Shown: one piece after another, positions 6,717 through 17,355 of the stretch
Layout of the letters: every line of letters starts with the position of its first letter
How positions within the stretch are numbered: position 1 is the stretch's first letter
Source of the DNA: Candidatus Kuenenia stuttgartensis
GTDB lineage: Bacteria; Planctomycetota; Planctomycetia; Pirellulales; UBA1268
Direction: 5' to 3'
Assembly (NCBI GenBank): GCA_945865325.1
Contig: CAMBFA010000025.1
Location: 1-32,904, forward strand
Length of the DNA stretch: 32,904 nt
Program-made: the position numbers and the translations under genes
Notes under the pieces: model-generated
The model's database searches: none
Told to the model about the DNA's origin: nothing
Seen by the model: only the letters and a program-made list of their open reading frames with translations

Positions 6717-8098
6717 GCGCCGACAATCTCCCGCAGCGCCCTGCCCCCGGCGGTCACCTGCAGCGGGCGATCGAACGGATCGCGGAACTCGTGATCGGGA
6801 GGGATACCGAGGAGTTGGAAGATCGTCGCCGCGAGATCGGGGGGGCGGACGGGGCGGTCAGCGGGCATCCCGCCTCGCTCGTCGCTGGCGCCGATCACCC
6901 CCCCGCCGGGCACGCCGGCGCCCGCCAGGGCCACTGAGAAGACGCTCCCCCAATGGTCGCGTCCACCGGCCGGGTTGATCGTTGGCGTGCGACCGAACTC
7001 CCCCATCACCACGACGAGCGTCTCGTCGAGGAGGCCGCGCTCGGCGAGATCGTCAAGCAGCGCGCTGTAAGCGGTGTCGAACTGCGGGCAGAGGACGTTC
7101 TTGAGCCGGCCGGCGTTGTCTTGGTGGGTGTCCCAGAGCGGGCTGCCGGCGGCCGTGTCCCCCGGCTCGCGCGGCCAGTTGACCTGGACGAGCCTCACGC
7201 CCGCTTCGATCAGCCGTCGACCGAGGAGCACGCTCTGGCCGAACTTCCCCCGGCCGTACCGGTCGCGGGAAGCCGCCGGCTCACGCTCGATCTCGAGGGC
7301 CTCGCGCGTCGCACCGGCATGGAGGAGGTCGAAGGCCTCCTGCTGGAAGCGGTCGAGCTCCGCCATGCCCGCGCTCGGCTGAAGGCGGTGGAAGCGCCGG
7401 TCGAGTTGGCCAAGGAGATCCCGGCGGTCGTCGAGTCGCAGCTCTGTGATCCCGGCCGCGGCCGTCAGCCCCTCGATCTCAATCCGCTCCTGCGACGGAT
7501 CGCAGCGGAGGATGTGCGGATGCCACGCCGCCCCCATGAAGCCGCCATTTTGTCCCGGCCAAGGGATCGCCGGATTGTTGAAGATCGGCTCGGGGAGGAT
7601 CACCGCATCCAGCGGCGACCGCTCCGAAGCCCGAAGGGCACCGACGGCGCCGGCGAGGCTCGGCCAGTCCTGGGCGCTGGGGGGCACGCTCTCCGCCACG
7701 CTCGTCGGCTCGTGGCCGGTGAGCATGAAGGCGCCGCTGGTGGAGTGGGAATGGATGCCGGTCGTCATCGAGCGGATGACGCACATCCGATCGGCGCGGG
7801 CGGCTGAAAGCGGGAGCAGCTCGCTGAAATGGACCCCCGGGACACTCGTGCCAATCGGGAGAAACGGCCCGCGGATCTCGATTGGCGCCGCCGGCTTGGG
7901 GTCGAATGTCTCGTGCTGCGGCGGCCCGCCGGAGAGGAAGATGATCAGGCAGGAGTTTGCCCGGGGTTGGCCCGATGCGGCGGCCCGAACGCGCTTGAGG
8001 GTCGGCAGACCGAGGCCGAGCGCGCCCAAGCCCCCGGCGCGGATCAGTTCCCGCCGGGAGAGGAGCCGCCTCGTGATGTCTGGCCGAAGAACCGCCAT
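6713..8098 (-). CDS. DUF1501 family protein with Tat-like leader (first copy)
   Basis: The 461-residue product starts with a twin-arginine-type leader (LSRRELIRAGGLGALGLGLP, near residues 13-32), predicting folded export. The rest is DUF1501, a sulfatase/alkaline-phosphatase-superfamily relative. Characteristic segments are FLSGGPPQHETFDPKP, MGEFGRTPTINPAGGRDHW and a C-terminal LLGIPPDHEFRDPF. DUF1501 proteins are greatly expanded in planctomycetes and usually follow a PSD1 gene. This copy has none next to it; instead it is joined by an ATGA overlap to the membrane glycosyltransferase-like gene. Its biochemical role is not established for the family. The start ATG has no strong ribosome site, but the leader begins correctly from it. 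Confidence 0.88.
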   Translation of the reverse strand: MAVLRPDITRRLLSRRELIRAGGLGALGLGLPTLKRVRAAASGQPRANSCLIIFLSGGPPQHETFDPKPAAPIEIRGPFLPIGTSVPGVHFSELLPLSAARADRMCVIRSMTTGIHSHSTSGAFMLTGHEPTSVAESVPPSAQDWPSLAGAVGALRASERSPLDAVILPEPIFNNPAIPWPGQNGGFMGAAWHPHILRCDPSQERIEIEGLTAAAGITELRLDDRRDLLGQLDRRFHRLQPSAGMAELDRFQQEAFDLLHAGATREALEIEREPAASRDRYGRGKFGQSVLLGRRLIEAGVRLVQVNWPREPGDTAAGSPLWDTHQDNAGRLKNVLCPQFDTAYSALLDDLAERGLLDETLVVVMGEFGRTPTINPAGGRDHWGSVFSVALAGAGVPGGGVIGASDERGGMPADRPVRPPDLAATIFQLLGIPPDHEFRDPFDRPLQVTAGGRALREIVGA

Positions 8099-8140: not shown

Positions 8141-8169
8141 ATTCTATGCTCCTTCTGCCCTCCCCCCAA
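8141..8169 (-). promoter_or_regulatory. Candidate sigma70-type promoter for the DUF1501 / glycosyltransferase operon
   Basis: Read on the minus strand, TTGGGG (plus-strand 8164-8169) and TAGAAT (8141-8146) are separated by exactly 17 bases. The -10 box matches the consensus at five of six positions; the -35 box has only the TTG. It lies about 45 bases upstream of the ATG at 8098 inside a 132-base divergent intergenic region. This is a sequence match only. Confidence 0.35.
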
Positions 8170-8230: not shown

Positions 8231-9262
8231 ATGCCAACCGATCAATCCCCGCCGCGTCCACCCATCACCGTCGTCGTCGGACGGGGGAAACACGCCGAAT
8301 CGACCCACGCAATTCATGCCGTGATCGCCCGCGACGACGGCAGCCTCGTCGCCTGGCACGGCGATCCGCAGCGGCAAACGTTCCCCCGCTCGGCGGTGAA
8401 ATCGATCCAGGCACTCGCACTGCTGGAGAGCGGCGCGGCGGACCGGTTCGGCTTCACGCCGGCCGAGCTCGCACTCGCGTGCAGTTCCCACGCCGGCACG
8501 CCGCTCCAGGTAGAGACGGCCCGGAGCATGCTCGCCAAGGTGGGGCTCGAGCCTGACAGCCTCGAGTGCGGGGCCCATTGGCCCCTCGACGAGCCGAGCG
8601 CCCGTGCCCTGGCACGCGTCGGCGCCGAGCCCGGACCGCTCCACAACAACTGCTCCGGCAAGCATACCGGCTTCCTCGCCGTGGCCCGCCACCTCGGGCT
8701 CGATCCCACCGGCTACGTCGCCCCCGACCATCCGGTGCAACAGCGCGTCACGGCGACGCTGGCCGAGGTGTGCGGCGTTCCCCTTTCGGCGGCCAACCGG
8801 GCCACCGACGGCTGCTCGATCCCGACCTACAAGATCCCTCTGGCGAGCCTGGCGACGGGATTCGCCCGAATCGGCACCGGCCGGAGCCTCTCCGCCGGCA
8901 GGCAAGCAGCGTTCGAACGGCTGCGCCGGGCGGTGGCCGACCATCCGCTCCTCCTCGCCGGTCCGGGAAGGTTTGACTCGCGCGTGACGGCGACCTGCGG
9001 CCCGCGGGTGTTTCTCAAATCGGGGGCCGAGGGGGTGCTGTGCGCCGCGATCCCCGCCGCCGGCCTGGGGATCGCCCTCAAGGCGGAGGACGGGGCACTG
9101 CGGGGGAGCGAAGTCGCGATGGCGGAATTGCTCCTGAAAATGCTCCCCACCCCGACGCCCGAAGAGCGAGCCCTCCTCGACGAGCTCCGCCTGCCCCACT
9201 TGAAAAACTGGCGGGGCACGAATGTCGGCTATCTGGGAGTGACCGTCGCCAGGATCCGCTGA
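8231..9262 (+). CDS. Type II-like L-asparaginase (Rhizobium etli ReAII / PF06089 family)
   Basis: The 343-residue enzyme should hydrolyse L-asparagine to aspartate and ammonia. It belongs to the ReAII class, which is unrelated to the E. coli asparaginases. Key residues of that class are visible: the SxxK pair in PRSAVKS (Ser54 and Lys57), the CSGKH motif at 141-145 (Cys141, Lys144) and the DGCSIP motif with Cys195. In ReAII the equivalent two cysteines and lysine hold a zinc ion. The CSSHAGTP segment (residues 84-91) is also typical. No signal peptide is visible, so it is cytoplasmic. The ATG at 8231 was chosen because the family sequence starts shortly after it; the upstream open frame is antisense to the DUF1501 gene. 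Ribosome binding is weak. Confidence 0.9.
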   Translation: MPTDQSPPRPPITVVVGRGKHAESTHAIHAVIARDDGSLVAWHGDPQRQTFPRSAVKSIQALALLESGAADRFGFTPAELALACSSHAGTPLQVETARSMLAKVGLEPDSLECGAHWPLDEPSARALARVGAEPGPLHNNCSGKHTGFLAVARHLGLDPTGYVAPDHPVQQRVTATLAEVCGVPLSAANRATDGCSIPTYKIPLASLATGFARIGTGRSLSAGRQAAFERLRRAVADHPLLLAGPGRFDSRVTATCGPRVFLKSGAEGVLCAAIPAAGLGIALKAEDGALRGSEVAMAELLLKMLPTPTPEERALLDELRLPHLKNWRGTNVGYLGVTVARIR

Positions 9263-9324
9263 AAGCCCTGCAAACCAGCGCTGAAGCCGTTGCCAGCTCA
9301 CCACTTCCGCAGCAAGCGGCAACC

Positions 9325-9344
9325 CGGGAGGCGTAAGTCTCCCG
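9325..9344 (+). terminator. Weak hairpin downstream of asparaginase
   Basis: CGGGAG (9325-9330) and CTCCCG (9339-9344) form a 6-bp stem with an 8-base loop, 62 bases after the asparaginase stop. No T-run follows. A TAGAAT box (9354-9359) just after it could be the -10 element for the PSD1 gene, but no matching -35 box was found. Confidence 0.3.
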
Positions 9345-9397
9345 ATGGTGGCCTAGAATTGGGGGAGCGGGTCGGCCTCGCGGCTCCCGCCCCCCCC

Positions 9398-12265
9398 ATG
9401 CGCCACATCAGTCTCACCATCCGCCGTGCCCGTCACCTCTGGCCGGCGGTGTCTCCGTTGGCAGCGATGCTGATCGCTCTCCTCACCGTGCTCCTCGCCG
9501 GGTCGCAACCGGCGGCGGCGATCTCGCCTGAGCAGGAAAAGCTGTTCGAGGAGAAGGTTCGGCCACTCCTGGTCACTCGTTGCCAGGGCTGTCATGGGGC
9601 CCGGTTGGCCGAGGGGGGGCTGCGGCTCGACAACCTCCCGGCGGTGCTCAAGGGGGGCGACTCCGGAGCGATTCTCACCCCCGGCGACCCGACCGCGAGC
9701 AAGGTCTTGAAGGTGGTCCGCCGCGAACTCGAGCCGGCGATGCCCCCCGACGAACCGCTCCCGGCCGAGGAGGTGGCGATTCTCGAAGCCTGGATCGCGG
9801 CCGGCGTTCCCTGGAGCGGGCCCGGGGCCGAAGGCCCTGCCGCTGGGGAAGACACGCTCCCGGCAGACATGGAGGCGCGGCTCGTCTGGGCGCGGCAGCG
9901 TCACTGGGCCTACCAGCCGTTCACCCGTCACGCCCCCCCCGAGCCTCCCGCTGGGCTCGATCCCGCCGGGAGCCGCGAGTGGGGCGGCCTACTCGACCGC
10001 TTCGTGACCGCGAAGATCGTCGTCGCGGGCCTCGAGCCGTCGCCACAGGCCGATCCGCGGGCCCTCGTCCGCCGGCTGTGGTTTGACCTCACCGGCCTTC
10101 CCCCGCCGGCCGACCGTGTCGATGCCTTCGCCGCGAATCCCTCCGAGGAAGCTTGGGGAGCGCTCGTCGCGGAACTCCTGGCGGCGCCGGAGCACTCCGA
10201 ACACTGGGCGCGGCACTGGCTCGATCTGGCCCGCTACGCCGACACGATGGGCTATGCCTTCGGCAACCAGGATCCCCGCTATCCCTTCGCCTGGACCTAC
10301 CGCGACTGGGTCGTGGGGGCACTCGCCTCCGACATGCCCTACGACCGGTTCGTGACGCTCCAACTCGCTGCCGATTTGGTCGAGCCCCCGGCGGAGAAGG
10401 CCGACTTGGCCGCGCTCGGTTTTCTCACGGTCGGCCGCACTTTCCTCGGCAATCCCCACGACATCATCGACGATCGCATCGACCTGGTCACCCGCGGACT
10501 GCTGGGGCTGACAGTCGCCTGTGGCCGCTGTCACGATCACAAATACGAACCGGTCAGTACGGCGGACTATTACGGCCTCTACGGGATCTTCGCCTCGAGC
10601 CAGATTCCGGCCGAACTGCCGGTCATCGGGACGGCCCCTCCCGGCCCGGAGGCCGATGCCTTCAACGCCAAGCTCGCCGAACTGAAGGCCGCCGTGCCGG
10701 CCCATGAAGACGCCGTCCGCCGGCGCGGGACGACTGCGGCCATCGCCCACACCGCCGACTATCTCCTCGAGACCGCTCGCCCTACGCCCCGCAAGGCCGA
10801 CAACCGCCCCCCGCGCCTCGCCGACGAGTACGACCTCCTCCAGGGGCTCCTCGATCGCGTCTCGCGCGGGATTGGCAGCGCCGCGCCGACCGACCCGATT
10901 GTCGGGCCCTGGGTGCAGCTGAAGGGGAAGAGCGATGAGGAGATTGGCCCTGCCATCGCGGCGCTCCTGGCGAGCTGGGGGGATCGCCCCGATGCGGCGA
11001 TCGTCAATCGATTGGTCGTTGCCGAGCTGCGTTCGCCGGTGCCGCAAACGCTCCGCTCCGTGGCCGAAGCCTACGCACGACTCTTCGCCCGGGTGGCCCC
11101 CGATTGGGCCGGCGGCCCGGCGGCCCAGCCCGATGATCCGCCCGAGCTCGTCGCGCTCCGCGGTGCGCTCGGTGCCGCAGGGACGGCGCTGGTCGTCCAG
11201 CCCGGCGAGGCGATGCAGCTGGCCTCGATCGAGGAGGGCAACGAACACCGGCGGCGGAAGATGGAGATCACCAGGCACGAAGCGGAATCCCCCGGTGGGC
11301 CACCGCAGGCGATGGTGATGATCGACCGGGACCAACTCTCCGACAGCCATGTCCTCATCCGCGGCAATCCCGGCCGCCCCGGTGAGCTCGTCGAACGACG
11401 GCTCCCCAAGCTCATCGGCGGCACCCCCGCATCACGGACCTCAAGCGGCCGCCTCGACCTCGCCCATGGGATCGTCGATCCGACCAATCCGCTCACCGCC
11501 CGGATGATCGTCAACTGGGTCTGGGCGCACCACTTTGGCCGCGGGATCGTCGATCCGGTCGGTGATCTGGGGCTGCGCGGCGAGCCGCCGAGCCATCCCG
11601 AGCTCCTCGACGATCTGGCCCGGCGCTTCGTCGAGGAGGGAAAGTGGAGCCTTCACTGGCTCCACCGCGAGATCGTCACCAGCCGCACGTGGCGGCGGTC
11701 GGCGGTCGCCACGGCCGATCAGCTGGCCGCCGATTCCGACAACCGGCTCCTCGCCCGTGCCAACCGGCGCCGGCTCGACTGGGAAGCGTGGCGGGATGGC
11801 CTGATGTCGGCGGCAGGGGTCCTCGACACGCACACCCGAGGCGGCCGTGGGGTCAACCCGCTCGCCCAGGATGCCATGCACCGCCGCACTCTTTACACGC
11901 GGCTCGACCGCCAAGACGTGCCGGGCATCCTGCGGATTTTCGACGTTGCCAACCCCGATGCCGCAACGCACGAACGGAGCCGGACGAGCGTCCCCCAGCA
12001 GTCGCTCGCCGCCCTCAACGCGCCGCTGGTGATCGACGCCGCCCGGCAGGTCGCCGCGCGGTCGCTGCGGGAAGGGGGAGCGCAGGAAGACACCCGGATC
12101 GAGCGGCTGTGGCGGGCCTGCCTGTCCCGCTCGCCCGATGGCGACGAGATCAGCGCCGCGAAAGGATTTCTCGCCGTCGCCGGTTCCACGAACCCCGATT
12201 TCGGTCCCTGGGAGCAACTCGCCCAGGCGCTCCTCGCCTCGGCCGAATTCCAATTCACCGACTGA
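9398..12265 (+). CDS. PSD1 protein: planctomycete cytochrome c, DUF1549 and DUF1553 domains (first copy)
   Basis: The 955-residue exported protein has a signal peptide (hydrophobic core about residues 22-36, ending PAAA). A planctomycete cytochrome c domain follows, with the haem-binding motif CQGCH at residues 62-66 and the later AMPPDEPLP stretch that may supply an axial Met. DUF1549 spans about residues 200-400 and contains the second CxxCH-type motif, CGRCHDHKYEP (near 374). DUF1553 covers about 680-935, opening LAHGIVDPTNPLTARMIVNWVW. This architecture is essentially planctomycete-specific and proposed to act in periplasmic polysaccharide handling; no reaction is proven. ATG 9398 was preferred to the TTG at 9290 because it places the signal peptide at the N-terminus. 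A DUF1501 gene follows after 40 bases, the usual pairing. Confidence 0.92.
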   Translation: MRHISLTIRRARHLWPAVSPLAAMLIALLTVLLAGSQPAAAISPEQEKLFEEKVRPLLVTRCQGCHGARLAEGGLRLDNLPAVLKGGDSGAILTPGDPTASKVLKVVRRELEPAMPPDEPLPAEEVAILEAWIAAGVPWSGPGAEGPAAGEDTLPADMEARLVWARQRHWAYQPFTRHAPPEPPAGLDPAGSREWGGLLDRFVTAKIVVAGLEPSPQADPRALVRRLWFDLTGLPPPADRVDAFAANPSEEAWGALVAELLAAPEHSEHWARHWLDLARYADTMGYAFGNQDPRYPFAWTYRDWVVGALASDMPYDRFVTLQLAADLVEPPAEKADLAALGFLTVGRTFLGNPHDIIDDRIDLVTRGLLGLTVACGRCHDHKYEPVSTADYYGLYGIFASSQIPAELPVIGTAPPGPEADAFNAKLAELKAAVPAHEDAVRRRGTTAAIAHTADYLLETARPTPRKADNRPPRLADEYDLLQGLLDRVSRGIGSAAPTDPIVGPWVQLKGKSDEEIGPAIAALLASWGDRPDAAIVNRLVVAELRSPVPQTLRSVAEAYARLFARVAPDWAGGPAAQPDDPPELVALRGALGAAGTALVVQPGEAMQLASIEEGNEHRRRKMEITRHEAESPGGPPQAMVMIDRDQLSDSHVLIRGNPGRPGELVERRLPKLIGGTPASRTSSGRLDLAHGIVDPTNPLTARMIVNWVWAHHFGRGIVDPVGDLGLRGEPPSHPELLDDLARRFVEEGKWSLHWLHREIVTSRTWRRSAVATADQLAADSDNRLLARANRRRLDWEAWRDGLMSAAGVLDTHTRGGRGVNPLAQDAMHRRTLYTRLDRQDVPGILRIFDVANPDAATHERSRTSVPQQSLAALNAPLVIDAARQVAARSLREGGAQEDTRIERLWRACLSRSPDGDEISAAKGFLAVAGSTNPDFGPWEQLAQALLASAEFQFTD

Positions 12266-12305
12266 TGGCCCCTCGCCGGGCCCCACGCTCTTCGGCTGCG
12301 CCACC

Positions 12306-13769
12306 ATGAATCCCCCGCCCCCCTGCTATTCCGCCCCGGTCACCCGTCGGGACGTCCTCCTCCGCACCGGGCTGGGGCTCGGCTGGCTCGGCGCGGCGAG
12401 CCTCCTGGAGACGGAGGCCGCCGCCGCCAACTCGAGCGCTACCCCGGCATCATCGCTGGAGCCGATCCACCGCTCGCTTGCGCCCCGCCCCCCGCACTTC
12501 CCCGCGCGAGCCAGGGCCGTCATTCATCTCTTCGCCAACGGGGGCCCGAGCCACCTCGACACCTTCGATCGCAAGGTGGCGCTGGAGAAGTATGCCGGTC
12601 AAGAGGTCCCGGGCACCCTTCCCACCGAACGTCGCACCGGTGCCGCGCTCCCCTCGCCGTTCGCCTTCCGTCGCTACGGCGAGAGCGGGCTGGAGATCAG
12701 CGATCTGTTTCCATCGGTGGCCCGGCATGCCGACCGGCTCCTCGTCGTCCGCTCGATGCACGCCGATGTTCCCAATCACGAGCCGTCGCTGATGCTCATG
12801 AATTGCGGCGATAGCCGGCTCGTCCGCCCCGCCGTCGGGGCGTGGGTGACCTACGGCCTGGGGACGGAAAACCAGAATCTCCCCGGCTTCGTGGCGATGT
12901 GCCCGGGCGGGTATCCGATCAAGGGCACGGAGAACTGGCGCAACGCCTTTCTCCCCGGTGCCTATCAGGGAACCTACGTCGACACCGCCAAACGGAAGGT
13001 GGAGGACCTCGTCGAGAATGTCCGCCACCCATTCCTCGACCGCGATGCCCAGCGCCGGCAGTTCGATCTGACGACGGCGCTCGACCGCAGGCACTTGGCC
13101 GCCCGCGACCACGACCCGCAACTCGAGGCCAGGCTGGCCTCGATGGAGCTGGCCTGGCGGATGCAGGCAGAGGCGGGGGAGGCCTTCGACGTCACCCGCG
13201 AGCCACAGCATGTCCGCGACCGCTACGGCGACGACACCCAAGGGCGGCAGATGCTCATCGCCCGCAGGCTCGTCGAGCGCGGCGTGCGCTACGTCCAGGT
13301 GTGGCACGGCGAGGGGCAGCCGTGGGACAGCCACGACGCGATCGGCAGGAATCACGCACGGCTGGCGAAGGAGTGCGATCAGGCGATCGGTGCGCTCCTC
13401 GACGATCTTGTCGGCTTGGGTCTCCTCGAGAGCACGCTCGTGCTCTGGGGGGGCGAGTTCGGGCGAACGCCGACGGTGGAGTTGCCCCAGCCGGGCACCG
13501 ACATCAAGGAGATCTCGGGGCGCGATCACAACCACCACGGCTTCAGCGTCTGGATGGCCGGCGGCGGCGTGAAGGGGGGAACGGCCTACGGCGCTACCGA
13601 CGAGCTCGGTTTCAAGGCGGTCGAGAAGCCGGTCCATGTCCATGATCTCCAGGCCACGCTCCTCCACTGCCTCGGCCTTGACCACACCCGGTTGACGTTC
13701 CGCCACAGCGGCCGCGACTTCCGCCTCACCGATATCCATGGCCGGGTCATCGAGGACTGGCTGGCGTGA
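12306..13769 (+). CDS. DUF1501 family protein with Tat-like leader (second copy, paired with PSD1)
   Basis: The 487-residue product begins with a twin-arginine-type leader (VTRRDVLLRTGLGLGWLGAASLL, about residues 12-34), which fixes ATG 12306 rather than an upstream in-frame start inside the PSD1 gene. DUF1501 hallmarks follow: FANGGPSHLDTFD near residues 77-89, GGEFGRTPTVELPQPG, the histidine-rich GRDHNHHGFSVWMAGGGVKGG, and a C-terminal LHCLGLDHTRLTFRHSGRDFRLTDIHG. The fold is related to sulfatases and alkaline phosphatases, but the role is unproven. It starts 40 bases after the PSD1 stop and overlaps the following nuclease gene by GTGA, so PSD1, DUF1501 and the nuclease probably form one transcript. 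Confidence 0.92.
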   Translation: MNPPPPCYSAPVTRRDVLLRTGLGLGWLGAASLLETEAAAANSSATPASSLEPIHRSLAPRPPHFPARARAVIHLFANGGPSHLDTFDRKVALEKYAGQEVPGTLPTERRTGAALPSPFAFRRYGESGLEISDLFPSVARHADRLLVVRSMHADVPNHEPSLMLMNCGDSRLVRPAVGAWVTYGLGTENQNLPGFVAMCPGGYPIKGTENWRNAFLPGAYQGTYVDTAKRKVEDLVENVRHPFLDRDAQRRQFDLTTALDRRHLAARDHDPQLEARLASMELAWRMQAEAGEAFDVTREPQHVRDRYGDDTQGRQMLIARRLVERGVRYVQVWHGEGQPWDSHDAIGRNHARLAKECDQAIGALLDDLVGLGLLESTLVLWGGEFGRTPTVELPQPGTDIKEISGRDHNHHGFSVWMAGGGVKGGTAYGATDELGFKAVEKPVHVHDLQATLLHCLGLDHTRLTFRHSGRDFRLTDIHGRVIEDWLA

Positions 13770-14335
13770 GACCAAAGCGGCCCCCGAACCCGCCGCATGG
13801 TCTGCCGTCGCGGTGGCGGCCGTGGTGGTTCGCTGCCATGGCGGTGGCCGCTGTCGGCACGGCGGCGGTGGAGCGCTGCCGGATCCCCGACGCCGTCGCG
13901 CGTTCCACCTGGACGGCGCGCCCCACTTGGACGGTGCGCACCGTTCACGATGGCGACACGGTCACCTGCGTCGATCCCCAGGGGGGACGGCACAAGATCC
14001 GTCTCCTTGGCATCGACGCCCCAGAGGCGGCCCAGGCATGGGGCAGGGAATCGTCCGAGGCGCTGTCGCGGAAGGTGGCCGGAGGCCGGGTCGCCGTCGT
14101 CTCGCGCGGCTATGACCAGCACGGCCGTCTCCTCGGCACGCTGTGGATCGACGATCGCGACATCAACCGCGAGATGGTGGCCGAAGGACACGCCTGGGTG
14201 TTCGGGCGGATCGCCCCCGATCCTGACCTTGTCGAGGCCGAGTCGGCCGCCCGACGGGAGCGGCGAGGCCTGTGGGCCGCAGGCCTTCCTAAAGAGCCCT
14301 CTGATTGGCGGGCGGCCCACCCGCGGCAGCCATGA
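13766..14335 (+). CDS. Membrane-anchored or secreted thermonuclease (SNase family)
   Basis: The 189-residue protein has a basic N-terminus and one hydrophobic segment (about residues 20-36), then a staphylococcal-nuclease-like domain from about residue 55. Catalytic elements are visible: VHDGDTVTC, then RLLGIDAPEAAQ, whose Arg and Glu correspond to Arg35 and Glu43 of the staphylococcal enzyme, and YDQHGRLLGTL with the Arg87 equivalent. It should cleave DNA or RNA using Ca2+ outside the cytoplasm. The GTG start (13766-13768) overlaps the stop of the DUF1501 gene in GTGA, so it is translationally coupled. That link to a PSD1/DUF1501 pair is unusual, and its purpose (nutrient scavenging from extracellular DNA, for example) is inference. 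A strong hairpin immediately follows. Confidence 0.87.
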   Translation: MRPKRPPNPPHGLPSRWRPWWFAAMAVAAVGTAAVERCRIPDAVARSTWTARPTWTVRTVHDGDTVTCVDPQGGRHKIRLLGIDAPEAAQAWGRESSEALSRKVAGGRVAVVSRGYDQHGRLLGTLWIDDRDINREMVAEGHAWVFGRIAPDPDLVEAESAARRERRGLWAAGLPKEPSDWRAAHPRQP

Positions 14336-14438: not shown

Positions 14439-15704
14439 ATGAGCAGCCGTCGCGAGGTCGTCGTCACCGGGGTTGGTGTGGTCAGTCCGATCGGAATCGG
14501 CGGTGATGACTTCTGGACATCGCTCCTCGCCGGCCGGTCAGGAATCCGGCCGATCACCCGCTTCGACTCCAGCAGCCTTCCGATCGCGTTCGGCGGCGAG
14601 ATCGCCGACTTCGACCCGAAGCTGTGGGTGCGGCCGAGGAAGAGCCTCAAGGTGATGAGCCGTGAGATCCAGTTCGGGTTTGCCGCCGCCGATCTGGCGA
14701 TGAGCGACGCCGGGATCGCGGCCGGAGCACTCGCCCCGGAACGGTTCGGCGTCGTCGTCGGGGGCGACATGATCTACGCCGATCTGGAGGATCTGGAGCG
14801 GACCTACCGACGGGCGCTGGCGGGGGGAGCGTTTGATTTCTCCGTTTGGTCGGAGGCGATCCACGACGATCTCCATCCGCTCTGGCTCCTCAAGCATCTC
14901 CCCAACATGACCGCCTCGCACATCGCCATCGCCCACGATGCCCGTGGCCCGAACAACACCATCGTCCTCGGCGACGTCTCCGGGTTGCTCGCGATCGGCG
15001 AGGCGGCAAGTGTCATCCGCCGCGGCTGGGCCGACGTGATGCTCACCGGGGGAACGGGGTGCCGACTCCATCCGATGGCGCTGGTGGCCCGTGGCGACGC
15101 CCTCCTCTCCCGGCGCCGCGACGACTGCACCCGGGCCAGCCGTCCCTTCGACCTCGAGCGCGACGGGCTCGTCAACGGTGAGGGGGCGGCGATGTTTGTC
15201 CTCGAGTCGCGCGACCACGCCCACCGTCGCGGGGCGAGGATCCGCAGCCGTCTCCTCTCGGTCGCATCACGCTGCGAGTCGGCAGCGGGGGGCGGGGCGC
15301 TAACCGGATCGGCGCTGCGCCTGGCCATCCGGACGGCGATTGACCGGGCCGGCATCGGGCCCGGCGACATCGGCCACGTCAACGCCCACGGGGCCTCGAC
15401 GAGGGACATGGACCGGGTCGAGGCAACCGCCATCACGGCCGAGCTCGGGGACATCCCGGTGACCGCCCCGAAGAGCGTCTTCGGCCATCTCGGGGCCGGC
15501 GGCGGCGCCGTGGAGTTGGCCGCGAGCATCCTCGGCTTAGAGGCGGGGCTCGTCCCGGCGACGCTCAACTACGAGTCGCCCGACCCCGACTGCCCCGTCG
15601 CCGTCGTCCATGGCGGGCCGCTCGCCGGTCGCCCCGGCACGGTGGTCGCCGTCAACCTCTGCTCGACCGGGCAGGCGGCGGCAGCGGTGGTCGCCGCGGA
15701 GTGA
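14439..15704 (+). CDS. Beta-ketoacyl-ACP synthase homologue with catalytic Cys replaced by Asp
   Basis: The 421-residue protein aligns across its whole length with FabF-type ketosynthases (thiolase fold). It opens VVVTGVGVVSPIG. The two catalytic histidines and lysine are kept: VNAHGAST (His317) and PKSVFGHLGAGGGAVE (Lys345, His350). Where FabF has TACTSG, this protein has GDVSGL, so Asp179 (GAC at 14973-14975) sits at the nucleophile position. The C-terminal glycine-rich loop (SFGFGGTN in FabF) is also lost, reading NLCSTGQAA. It cannot act as a normal condensing enzyme by the Cys mechanism. Chain-length factors and KSQ decarboxylases also lack this Cys but carry Gln, so a decarboxylase or partner-subunit role is possible. 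No ACP, acyltransferase or second ketosynthase is adjacent. Ribosome binding at the ATG is weak. Confidence 0.82.
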   Translation: MSSRREVVVTGVGVVSPIGIGGDDFWTSLLAGRSGIRPITRFDSSSLPIAFGGEIADFDPKLWVRPRKSLKVMSREIQFGFAAADLAMSDAGIAAGALAPERFGVVVGGDMIYADLEDLERTYRRALAGGAFDFSVWSEAIHDDLHPLWLLKHLPNMTASHIAIAHDARGPNNTIVLGDVSGLLAIGEAASVIRRGWADVMLTGGTGCRLHPMALVARGDALLSRRRDDCTRASRPFDLERDGLVNGEGAAMFVLESRDHAHRRGARIRSRLLSVASRCESAAGGGALTGSALRLAIRTAIDRAGIGPGDIGHVNAHGASTRDMDRVEATAITAELGDIPVTAPKSVFGHLGAGGGAVELAASILGLEAGLVPATLNYESPDPDCPVAVVHGGPLAGRPGTVVAVNLCSTGQAAAAVVAAE

Positions 15705-15727
15705 GCCGCGGCGGGCCCTCGGCTCAC
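15701..15727. terminator. Bidirectional hairpin containing both convergent stop codons
   Basis: GTGAGCCG (15701-15708) and CGGCTCAC (15720-15727) form a perfect 8-bp stem around an 11-base loop. The left arm includes the stop codon of the ketosynthase homologue (15702-15704) and the right arm that of the BBP7 gene (15724-15726). The symmetry means it would terminate or protect both transcripts. Confidence 0.5.
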
Positions 15728-17196
15728 CAGCTTTGGTTGTAGCCGAAAGAGAAGCCCATCATGAACGACTGGCCGCCCGGATCGATCTGGTTGTAGCGCG
15801 TCTTGTTCATGCTGAACTGCCGCGTCGCCGTGGCCACGCCCGCCACCCAGAGGATGTCGTAGCCCACCTGGATCGACGAGTTGGGGGTCATGTTCCAGCC
15901 CGCCAAGCAGGTCAGGTCGCCGAGGAAGCCCGGGCCAACCTGCTGCGCGGCCATCTTCCACACCTCGGTCCCCTCCGGGAAGGGCTGACGGGTGTCGGCA
16001 GGAGTCGTGGGATACAGGAAGGGAAGGGGCGGAACGGGCGTTCCCTGCTTCGGCACCGCATTGGGCTGCTGGTAGCCGCAGTTGCAGGTGCTCATCTGCT
16101 GCTGGGTGCCGGCGAAGGAGATCGCCGGCGCGGCGCGGCCGCGGAGCCCCCAGTAGAAGAACTCGTTCCGGCTGATCAGCTCGCCACCGAGATTCATCCC
16201 CAACAGCCAGTTTTCCGTCTGGATCAGATAGTCTCCGCCGAACATGTCGAGGGGCGTCGAATAGGCCCTGCTGCTGAAGGAGAAGGCCTCGTTGTAATTG
16301 GCAAGCCGCGCGCCGACGAGGATCGCCGGCAGCCAGCCACGTTCGGCGTGCCGCGCCCACTCGCCGTTGGGGACCATCGTCATCTTGTCGCGCCCTAGGC
16401 GGCGGACGAGCTTGAAGTTGGCCTCAATGCTGTTGAAGGTCGAGGTGCTCGTCGTCAGGTATTGCTGGGCCCCGGTGAAGCCCGGCGTCGCGTCGGAGAG
16501 GGGGGTGACGAGGTAGGTTTGTTTCTCCGGGGTGATAATCGAGTTCCAGCCATCGTTCTGATAGAAGGAGAAGCCGCCGTAATAGGTGACCTCCACCGAC
16601 CGGTCGCGATCGAGGTAGTCGCGGCCGAGGAATTCGCCGACGGTGATCCGCGCTCCGGGCGAAACGTTGTAGGGGAGCGAGTCGGTCGTGAAGACCCCCA
16701 TTTTCGACTTGAGGACCAAATACCGATCGAGAGCGTTGAGAGTGAGTAGATCGGAATCGTGGCCGATCACCTTGCGGTAGTTGCGGCCACGATTGAGGAA
16801 CACGAGCTCGGCGGAGCCGTAATACTCCCCGGTGCCGAACCAGCCCCCCGAGCTCACCTCCTCCGGCATCTCGTCGCCAAGGAGCCCGTCCATCAGCGAT
16901 GGCTCGGGGCTGAGAAGCGGCTCGGAAGATCCCTCCGGGAGCGGCTCGCCGACGACGCTGCTGAGGACGCCATCAAGCGGATCGGAGGCCGGGGCTTCGT
17001 CGACCAGGCCGATCGCCGCATCGGGCTCCGGAGCGAGGAGCCCCTCGCCCCCGAGCAGCAGCCCACCTTCGTCCGTCGGAGCGATCGACGGTTGGGAGGG
17101 GCGCGCGGCCGCCACAGGGCTGGCGACCAACATCGACGTCACCAAGGCGGCGAGCCCGAGGAAGCGATGGAGTGAAAGCGGAAGCAAGTTGATCAC
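15724..17196 (-). CDS. BBP7-type outer-membrane beta-barrel protein
   Basis: The 490-residue product starts with a signal peptide (about residues 1-32, hydrophobic LGLAALVTSMLVA, then SPVAAA). A Pro/Glu/Gly-rich low-complexity stretch of about 80 residues follows, then a barrel region from about residue 125 rich in alternating aromatic and polar residues (WFGTGEYYGSAELVFLNRGR, VEVTYYGGFSFYQN). The C-terminus, MMGFSFGYNQSW, ends in an aromatic residue, as outer-membrane barrels do. This matches the planctomycete BBP7 (putative beta-barrel porin) family; transport specificity is unknown. GTG 17196 was chosen because AAGGGG lies 6 bases upstream; an in-frame TTG at 17232 and a GTG at 17199 are alternatives. 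It converges with the ketosynthase homologue and is divergent from transaldolase. Confidence 0.78.
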   Translation of the reverse strand: MINLLPLSLHRFLGLAALVTSMLVASPVAAARPSQPSIAPTDEGGLLLGGEGLLAPEPDAAIGLVDEAPASDPLDGVLSSVVGEPLPEGSSEPLLSPEPSLMDGLLGDEMPEEVSSGGWFGTGEYYGSAELVFLNRGRNYRKVIGHDSDLLTLNALDRYLVLKSKMGVFTTDSLPYNVSPGARITVGEFLGRDYLDRDRSVEVTYYGGFSFYQNDGWNSIITPEKQTYLVTPLSDATPGFTGAQQYLTTSTSTFNSIEANFKLVRRLGRDKMTMVPNGEWARHAERGWLPAILVGARLANYNEAFSFSSRAYSTPLDMFGGDYLIQTENWLLGMNLGGELISRNEFFYWGLRGRAAPAISFAGTQQQMSTCNCGYQQPNAVPKQGTPVPPLPFLYPTTPADTRQPFPEGTEVWKMAAQQVGPGFLGDLTCLAGWNMTPNSSIQVGYDILWVAGVATATRQFSMNKTRYNQIDPGGQSFMMGFSFGYNQSW

Positions 17197-17202
17197 CACT
17201 GA

Positions 17203-17208
17203 CCCCTT
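17203..17208 (-). promoter_or_regulatory. Ribosome binding site supporting the BBP7 GTG start
   Basis: AAGGGG on the minus strand lies 6 bases before the GTG at 17196. It would lie inside the coding region if the TTG at 17232 were used. Confidence 0.45.
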
Positions 17209-17355
17209 GACCGAGGGTGATGGACCGGACAATCGACCCTATCGGAGTCTTTGATCGTCCGTGGAAGACTCCGCTCCACAGGAAAAACCCGCAGAACTGC
17301 TAGGATCGTCCCTGTCTTTCCAGCCCCCCTCATCCAACCAAACTCCCTCAGTTCC

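Follow-up and report, generated by a model that had tools for sequence, protein, structure and literature searches.

Gene A, at positions 14439 to 15704 of the window (the whole 32.9-kb stretch of DNA that was analysed), encodes a FabF-like ketosynthase homologue without the catalytic Cys. Its sequence and the context of its relatives suggest, with a probability of roughly 0.6, that A does not condense but serves as the chain-length-factor-like (KS-beta) subunit in a heterodimeric elongating ketosynthase. The role of a non-condensing partner is proposed because related orders encode the same gene beside an intact ketosynthase, and A is traced back to KS1, the first gene of an ancient KS1-KS2 tandem within the planctomycete cluster DH-(FabG)-ACP-DH-KS1-KS2. 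The source contig, C25, belongs to a 4.4-Mb planctomycete draft genome and carries the following features:

13766..14335, + strand: staphylococcal-nuclease-like gene directly upstream of A, with no evident link to lipid synthesis
14439..15704, + strand: gene A, Cys-less FabF-like ketosynthase homologue (putative relocated KS1 subunit), 421 amino acids, reading frame open
14973..14975, + strand: Asp179, codon GAC, motif GDVSGL, at the catalytic-Cys position; GAC or GAT in the source family
15387..15389, + strand: His317, motif NAHGAS, aligns with the catalytic His303 of FabF
15471..15473, + strand: Lys345, motif APKS, aligns with Lys335 of FabF
15486..15488, + strand: His350, motif FGHLG, aligns with His340 of FabF; Asn in most other families
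15657..15680, + strand: LCSTGQAA, which replaces the gating GFGG(T)N loop in the alignment

Fold and active site of A

Both halves of the protein match Pfam ketosynthase domains (ketoacyl-synt, 1.9e-40; C-terminal domain, 1.1e-19). An AlphaFold monomer model (pLDDT 81.6, pTM 0.86) has the full FabF fold and matches FabF structures at Z scores of ~57-58, with which the actinorhodin chain-length factor (CLF) chain 1tqy_B ties; the assignment as a ketosynthase homologue, made by eye in the original prediction, is thus borne out. FabF is also the nearest NCBIfam family, but A scores 291 bits on TIGR03150, below the cut-off of 493.75, while the FabF of the source genome, D, reaches 599 bits.

Codon and alignment agree on the predicted GAC at 14973-14975 and on Asp in place of the catalytic Cys. 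Asp179 aligns with the nucleophilic Cys of the FabF proteins of T. thermophilus, Synechocystis and B. subtilis, and the intact ketosynthase paralogues of the source genome have Cys at this position. The C-terminal GFGGTN loop had likewise been said to be replaced, and the alignment places NLCSTGQA of A against GFGG(T/Q/H)N. A therefore shares with FabF (KAS II, TIGR03150) its fold, its length and the active-site His, His and Lys, but lacks the Cys nucleophile of the TAC(T/A)SG motif as well as the loop. Actinobacterial CLFs and A have in common the FabF-like fold, the missing nucleophilic Cys and the retained Lys; these CLFs have Gln at the Cys position and have lost both His, whereas A has Asp and keeps both. 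In KSQ domains, as in the A proteins of the source family, the Cys is replaced and His/His/Lys are kept. In contrast to KSQ, A carries Asp instead of Gln and is a free-standing protein, and the two His are not retained in its wider clade.

Within the source family (UBA1268), a ketosynthase match was found in 71 of 72 genomes (E <= 1e-60), and most genomes encode an A orthologue at 63-99% identity together with two more distant paralogues. Every aligned orthologue of A has Asp at the Cys site, with both GAC and GAT codons occurring, and His317, Lys345 and His350 are retained throughout. Because dN/dS of A is 0.12-0.23 (against nine relatives) and the Asp is retained through both codons, this residue is maintained by selection. 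A one-off mutation or sequencing error at the Asp codon, a doubt that Cys in close relatives could have raised, is ruled out by these family-wide orthologues, and the acidic residue, as Asp or Glu, extends across the class. The loss of both the nucleophile and the gating loop could also indicate a decaying paralogue without function. This is hardly credible for a gene that is intact in nearly all source-family genomes, evolves at such a low dN/dS and keeps its Asp through synonymous codon change.

Active-site variation across the class

Residues were counted in 104 representatives. The Cys site is acidic in 101 of these, and the second His is mostly replaced by Asn. Of the 53 A-type representatives (less than 80% identity), 26 carry Asp and 24 Glu at the Cys site, 41 retain the first His and 51 the Lys, and the second His position holds His in 19 and Asn in 28. 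All 28 representatives of a second Cys-less type, B, have Glu; 26 of them carry Asn in place of the second His, and 25 keep the first His. The intact KS2 representatives read C-H-K-H in 19 of 19 cases. Other families of the source order (Pirellulales) have Glu or Asp, and rarely Gly, Ala or Ser, at the Cys site. In genomes added later, the Lys is lost as well in several A orthologues. Divergent signatures among the A orthologues include E-N-K-N, E-D-K-N, D-F-K-H, D-H-I-H and E-Q-S-T. Across these alignments, retention of His/His/Lys is, as a rule, special to the source family, while the acidic residue is general to the wider clade. The original statement that both His and the Lys are preserved thus holds for A and its family but not beyond, and the functional argument built on it is weak, since the wider clade usually has Asn at the second His and has sometimes lost the first His or the Lys.

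This variation bears on the possibility that A is a malonyl-ACP decarboxylase, i.e., a KSQ-like chain initiator that makes acetyl-ACP and primes KS2 or FabF. The His and Asn found elsewhere in the clade match the pair that decarboxylates in FabH-type synthases, and the complete retention of His317, Lys345 and His350 in the source family, together with the frequent retention of the first His in A-type and B-type representatives, would suit such an activity. Furthermore, the C163Q and C163A mutants of FabF are folded proteins (PDB entries). However, a number of A orthologues have lost the first His, the Lys or both, and decarboxylation therefore cannot be the function of the whole family; Asp also differs from the known decarboxylating substitute. 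FabH-type genes for initiation are present in the source genome, which weakens the idea that a missing FabH demands priming by a decarboxylase. Judged from the sequences, this role is unlikely, although it and the partner role are not exclusive of each other. For the partner role itself, the retention of His317, Lys345 and His350 in the source family is a counter-argument, because it exceeds the needs of a purely structural subunit.

Two further loci show variants of this site. Two diverged A-type genes with the signatures DHKH and DHKN lie ~4 kb apart at L115:7048-8313 and 11855-13126 (G043:C37). A large type I PKS-like protein (L096:11022-15464, G000:C106) contains a second KS domain in which SGDCSG aligns Asp with the Cys position and the usual His motif is missing, making it a CLF-like domain.

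The KS1-KS2 cluster and the neighbourhood of A

In four families of other orders of the class (f18, f20, f21 and f23), the closest relative of A, termed KS1, is flanked by the FabA/FabZ-like dehydratase DH2 and the intact ketosynthase KS2. The cluster DH1-(FabG)-ACP (~128 amino acids)-DH2-KS1-KS2 is encoded on one strand at 9 of 9 loci, in the chosen sample from which synteny was read. KS1 always has Asp or Glu at the Cys site in these families, and the adjoining KS2 retains C-H-K-H with TACAAS or TACAAG. A distant pair (L259) consists of a GDTSG KS1 directly upstream of a TACAAS KS2, and the Cys is still present in KS1 of two distant genomes (L260 and L261). The clusters of the source order and of family f19 read DH1-(FabG)-ACP-DH2-KS2 and their KS1 slot is empty (L094, L282, L284, L291-L297), while one f19 locus (L283) has KS2 without the other markers of the cluster. 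In the source genome (L094), DH at 7060, ACP at 8146 and DH at 8630 are followed by KS2 at ~9192-10532, with no KS1 in the slot. A search for a partner ketosynthase elsewhere in the genome, as had been proposed, thus yields KS2 as a candidate, and B is encoded at another site:

G000:C28:29200-30528 (source genome): KS2, candidate partner of A, TACAAS, beside DH-ACP-DH
G000:C5:44978-46297 (-), L093:8979-10298: B, Cys-less paralogue, Glu (REASG), second His replaced by Asn

B adjoins fabG-acpP-fabF near infB in the source genome (L093). All 198 genomes sampled from the class contain KS2. Several source-order genomes keep B and KS2 with no clear A, as scored at set thresholds and with some of the genomes being drafts; in these, KS2 must function without A, a point against the partner role.

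Trees built from a few representatives support KS1+KS2 at 100/100, KS1 at 100/93, acidic KS1 at 100/98 and the relocated group of A, B and f19 sequences at 99/97. The KS1 clade is the sister of planctomycete KS2, and its grouping with CLFs is rejected (AU p=0.008), where the comparison comprised three Streptomyces CLFs from annotated plasmids and the tested group had been defined once an initial tree, built without CLFs, was available. Membership of A among the actinobacterial CLFs is thereby ruled out. Because the three CLFs read Gln-Asp-Lys-Arg (Q-D-K-R) at the four active-site positions and fall outside the KS1 group, the resemblance of A to CLFs is probably convergent. The Cys site has a single Cys-to-acidic change among 10 letter changes in all, with repeated exchange of Asp and Glu; as reconstructed on the tree, the nucleophilic Cys of KS1 was lost once, long ago, to an acidic residue.

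Of the three roles originally offered for A, i.e., decarboxylase, partner subunit or an enzyme of a different reaction, operon synteny best supports the partner subunit. In the proposed mechanism, KS1, which swapped its nucleophilic Cys once for Asp or Glu, would have no thiol left to accept an acyl chain. In the source order and f19, KS1 exited the operon and duplicated into A and the Glu-containing B beside the core fabG-acpP-fabF, so that A would act in trans. A would dimerise with the intact KS2 (C28:29200-30528) and shape the acyl tunnel and the docking of ACP; KS2 would carry out the condensation, while A, presumably devoid of condensing activity, may influence chain length or substrate. 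As B, rather than A, adjoins a FabF, the two may differ in partner, and B may be the partner of the core FabF.

ACP, dehydratase, FabG and a second ketosynthase are all absent from the 32.9-kb window, in agreement with the original remark on the missing ACP and ketosynthase, and the lack of such neighbours argues against the partner role of A. Its source-family neighbours are a nuclease and an outer-surface-like protein, and a same-strand gene occupies the position of the upstream nuclease-like gene at 17 of 21 source-family loci. In other families, epimerase, GNAT, desaturase and MMPL-like genes lie near A, recurrently in some and in mixed orientations, and a comparison of the conserved neighbours across families yielded no pathway. 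This isolated position, the GNAT, NAD-epimerase and fatty-acid desaturase genes of other families and the prevalence of the acidic residue, although Asp and Glu interchange, would be compatible with a homodimer that is independent of KS2 and performs some other acyl transfer or acid-base reaction in which Asp or Glu is the catalytic residue. The repeated Asp/Glu exchange and the other active-site losses better fit a charge or structural role than a catalytic group that must be placed exactly, the ancestral place of the gene is beside KS2, and the neighbours differ among families. Such a reaction thus seems quite improbable.

Several observations concern the surroundings of these genes. The gene at 15724-17232 (-) of the window is convergent with A, has no Pfam match and is conserved downstream in 19 of 21 source-family loci and in other families. 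At L060:4464-8284 (G173:C77), NAD-epimerase, GNAT and fatty-acid desaturase genes lie beside A, and the epimerase and GNAT pair presumably recalls bacterial ceramide genes. Downstream of KS2, a GH3-like gene (acyl-acid-amido synthetase-like, by eye) and an alpha/beta-hydrolase-like gene were seen at L259:9084-10859 and L286:4733-6454; they occur at 10 and 11 of 23 loci, respectively, and are a possible clue to the product. On contig G248:C180, an A gene (L278:2105-3295) and a second KS2-like gene (AACASS, 61% identity; 10692-11984) are ~7 kb apart and possibly form a local pair. A KS1-KS2 fusion was considered as proof of partnership, but the long ORF checked (L089, 807 amino acids) is a single KS with an N-terminal extension that matches no Pfam family.

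Relation to known Cys-less ketosynthases

Rattray and co-workers described in 2009 two FabF paralogues of Rhodopirellula baltica with Asp and Glu for Cys163, RB3714 (NP_865682, Asp163) and RB4527 (NP_866153, Glu163), and anammox paralogues with Val and Phe, for which a different substrate and function were suggested (PMC2649909). Gln, originally named as the residue used by known Cys-less relatives, is thus correct for the three Streptomyces CLFs but not for these proteins. RB3714 reads Asp/His/Ile/His like the A orthologues L323 and L324, and RB4527 reads Glu/His/Lys/Asn/Pro like B, both matches being of the residue signature only. Unlike A and B here, the R. baltica paralogues were published without operon context, origin or function. 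The Kuenenia cluster contains ACP (kuste3603), FabZ (3604), FabF (3605) and a Cys-less FabF (3606) (PMC4790861; PMC2649909). Kuste3606 thus lies by an intact FabF, ACP and dehydratase, a similar arrangement to that of the KS1 clusters. Kuste3606 has Val163 and Asn/Glu at the His sites, whereas the KS1 lineage has an acidic residue.

The heterodimer role of KS-beta, or CLF, is established for type II PKS (PMC12664062). The A orthologues of the four other families adjoin an intact KS and ACP as a CLF does, whereas A itself is detached from its putative partner. KS-CLF pairs in Planctomycetes are mentioned in general terms (PMC10132072); the open-access literature yielded nothing further on planctomycete CLFs and no description of a tandem KS1-KS2 origin, a single Cys change or a relocation. 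Thus, the Asp/Glu substitution in R. baltica has been known since 2009, while the operon logic and the origin appear to be new.

It is conceivable, at slightly less than even odds, that these proteins represent a second, independent lineage of CLF-like subunits, with a Cys-to-Asp/Glu change and a class-wide KS2 partner, detached and duplicated in two lineages and with one copy in the core fatty-acid operon. If this is true, core lipid synthesis in these planctomycetes uses heterodimeric ketosynthases that evolved separately from the type II polyketide chain-length factors, the apparent place in core lipid metabolism following from the presence of KS2 in all sampled genomes of the class. The lineage would also offer a natural series for studying how a catalytic subunit turns into a partner, in which Cys gives way to Asp/Glu and the two His and the Lys disappear step by step. 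The puzzle posed by non-canonical FabF proteins, those of R. baltica and perhaps also those of the anammox ladderane clusters, would thereby gain a testable form, namely the identity of the partner.
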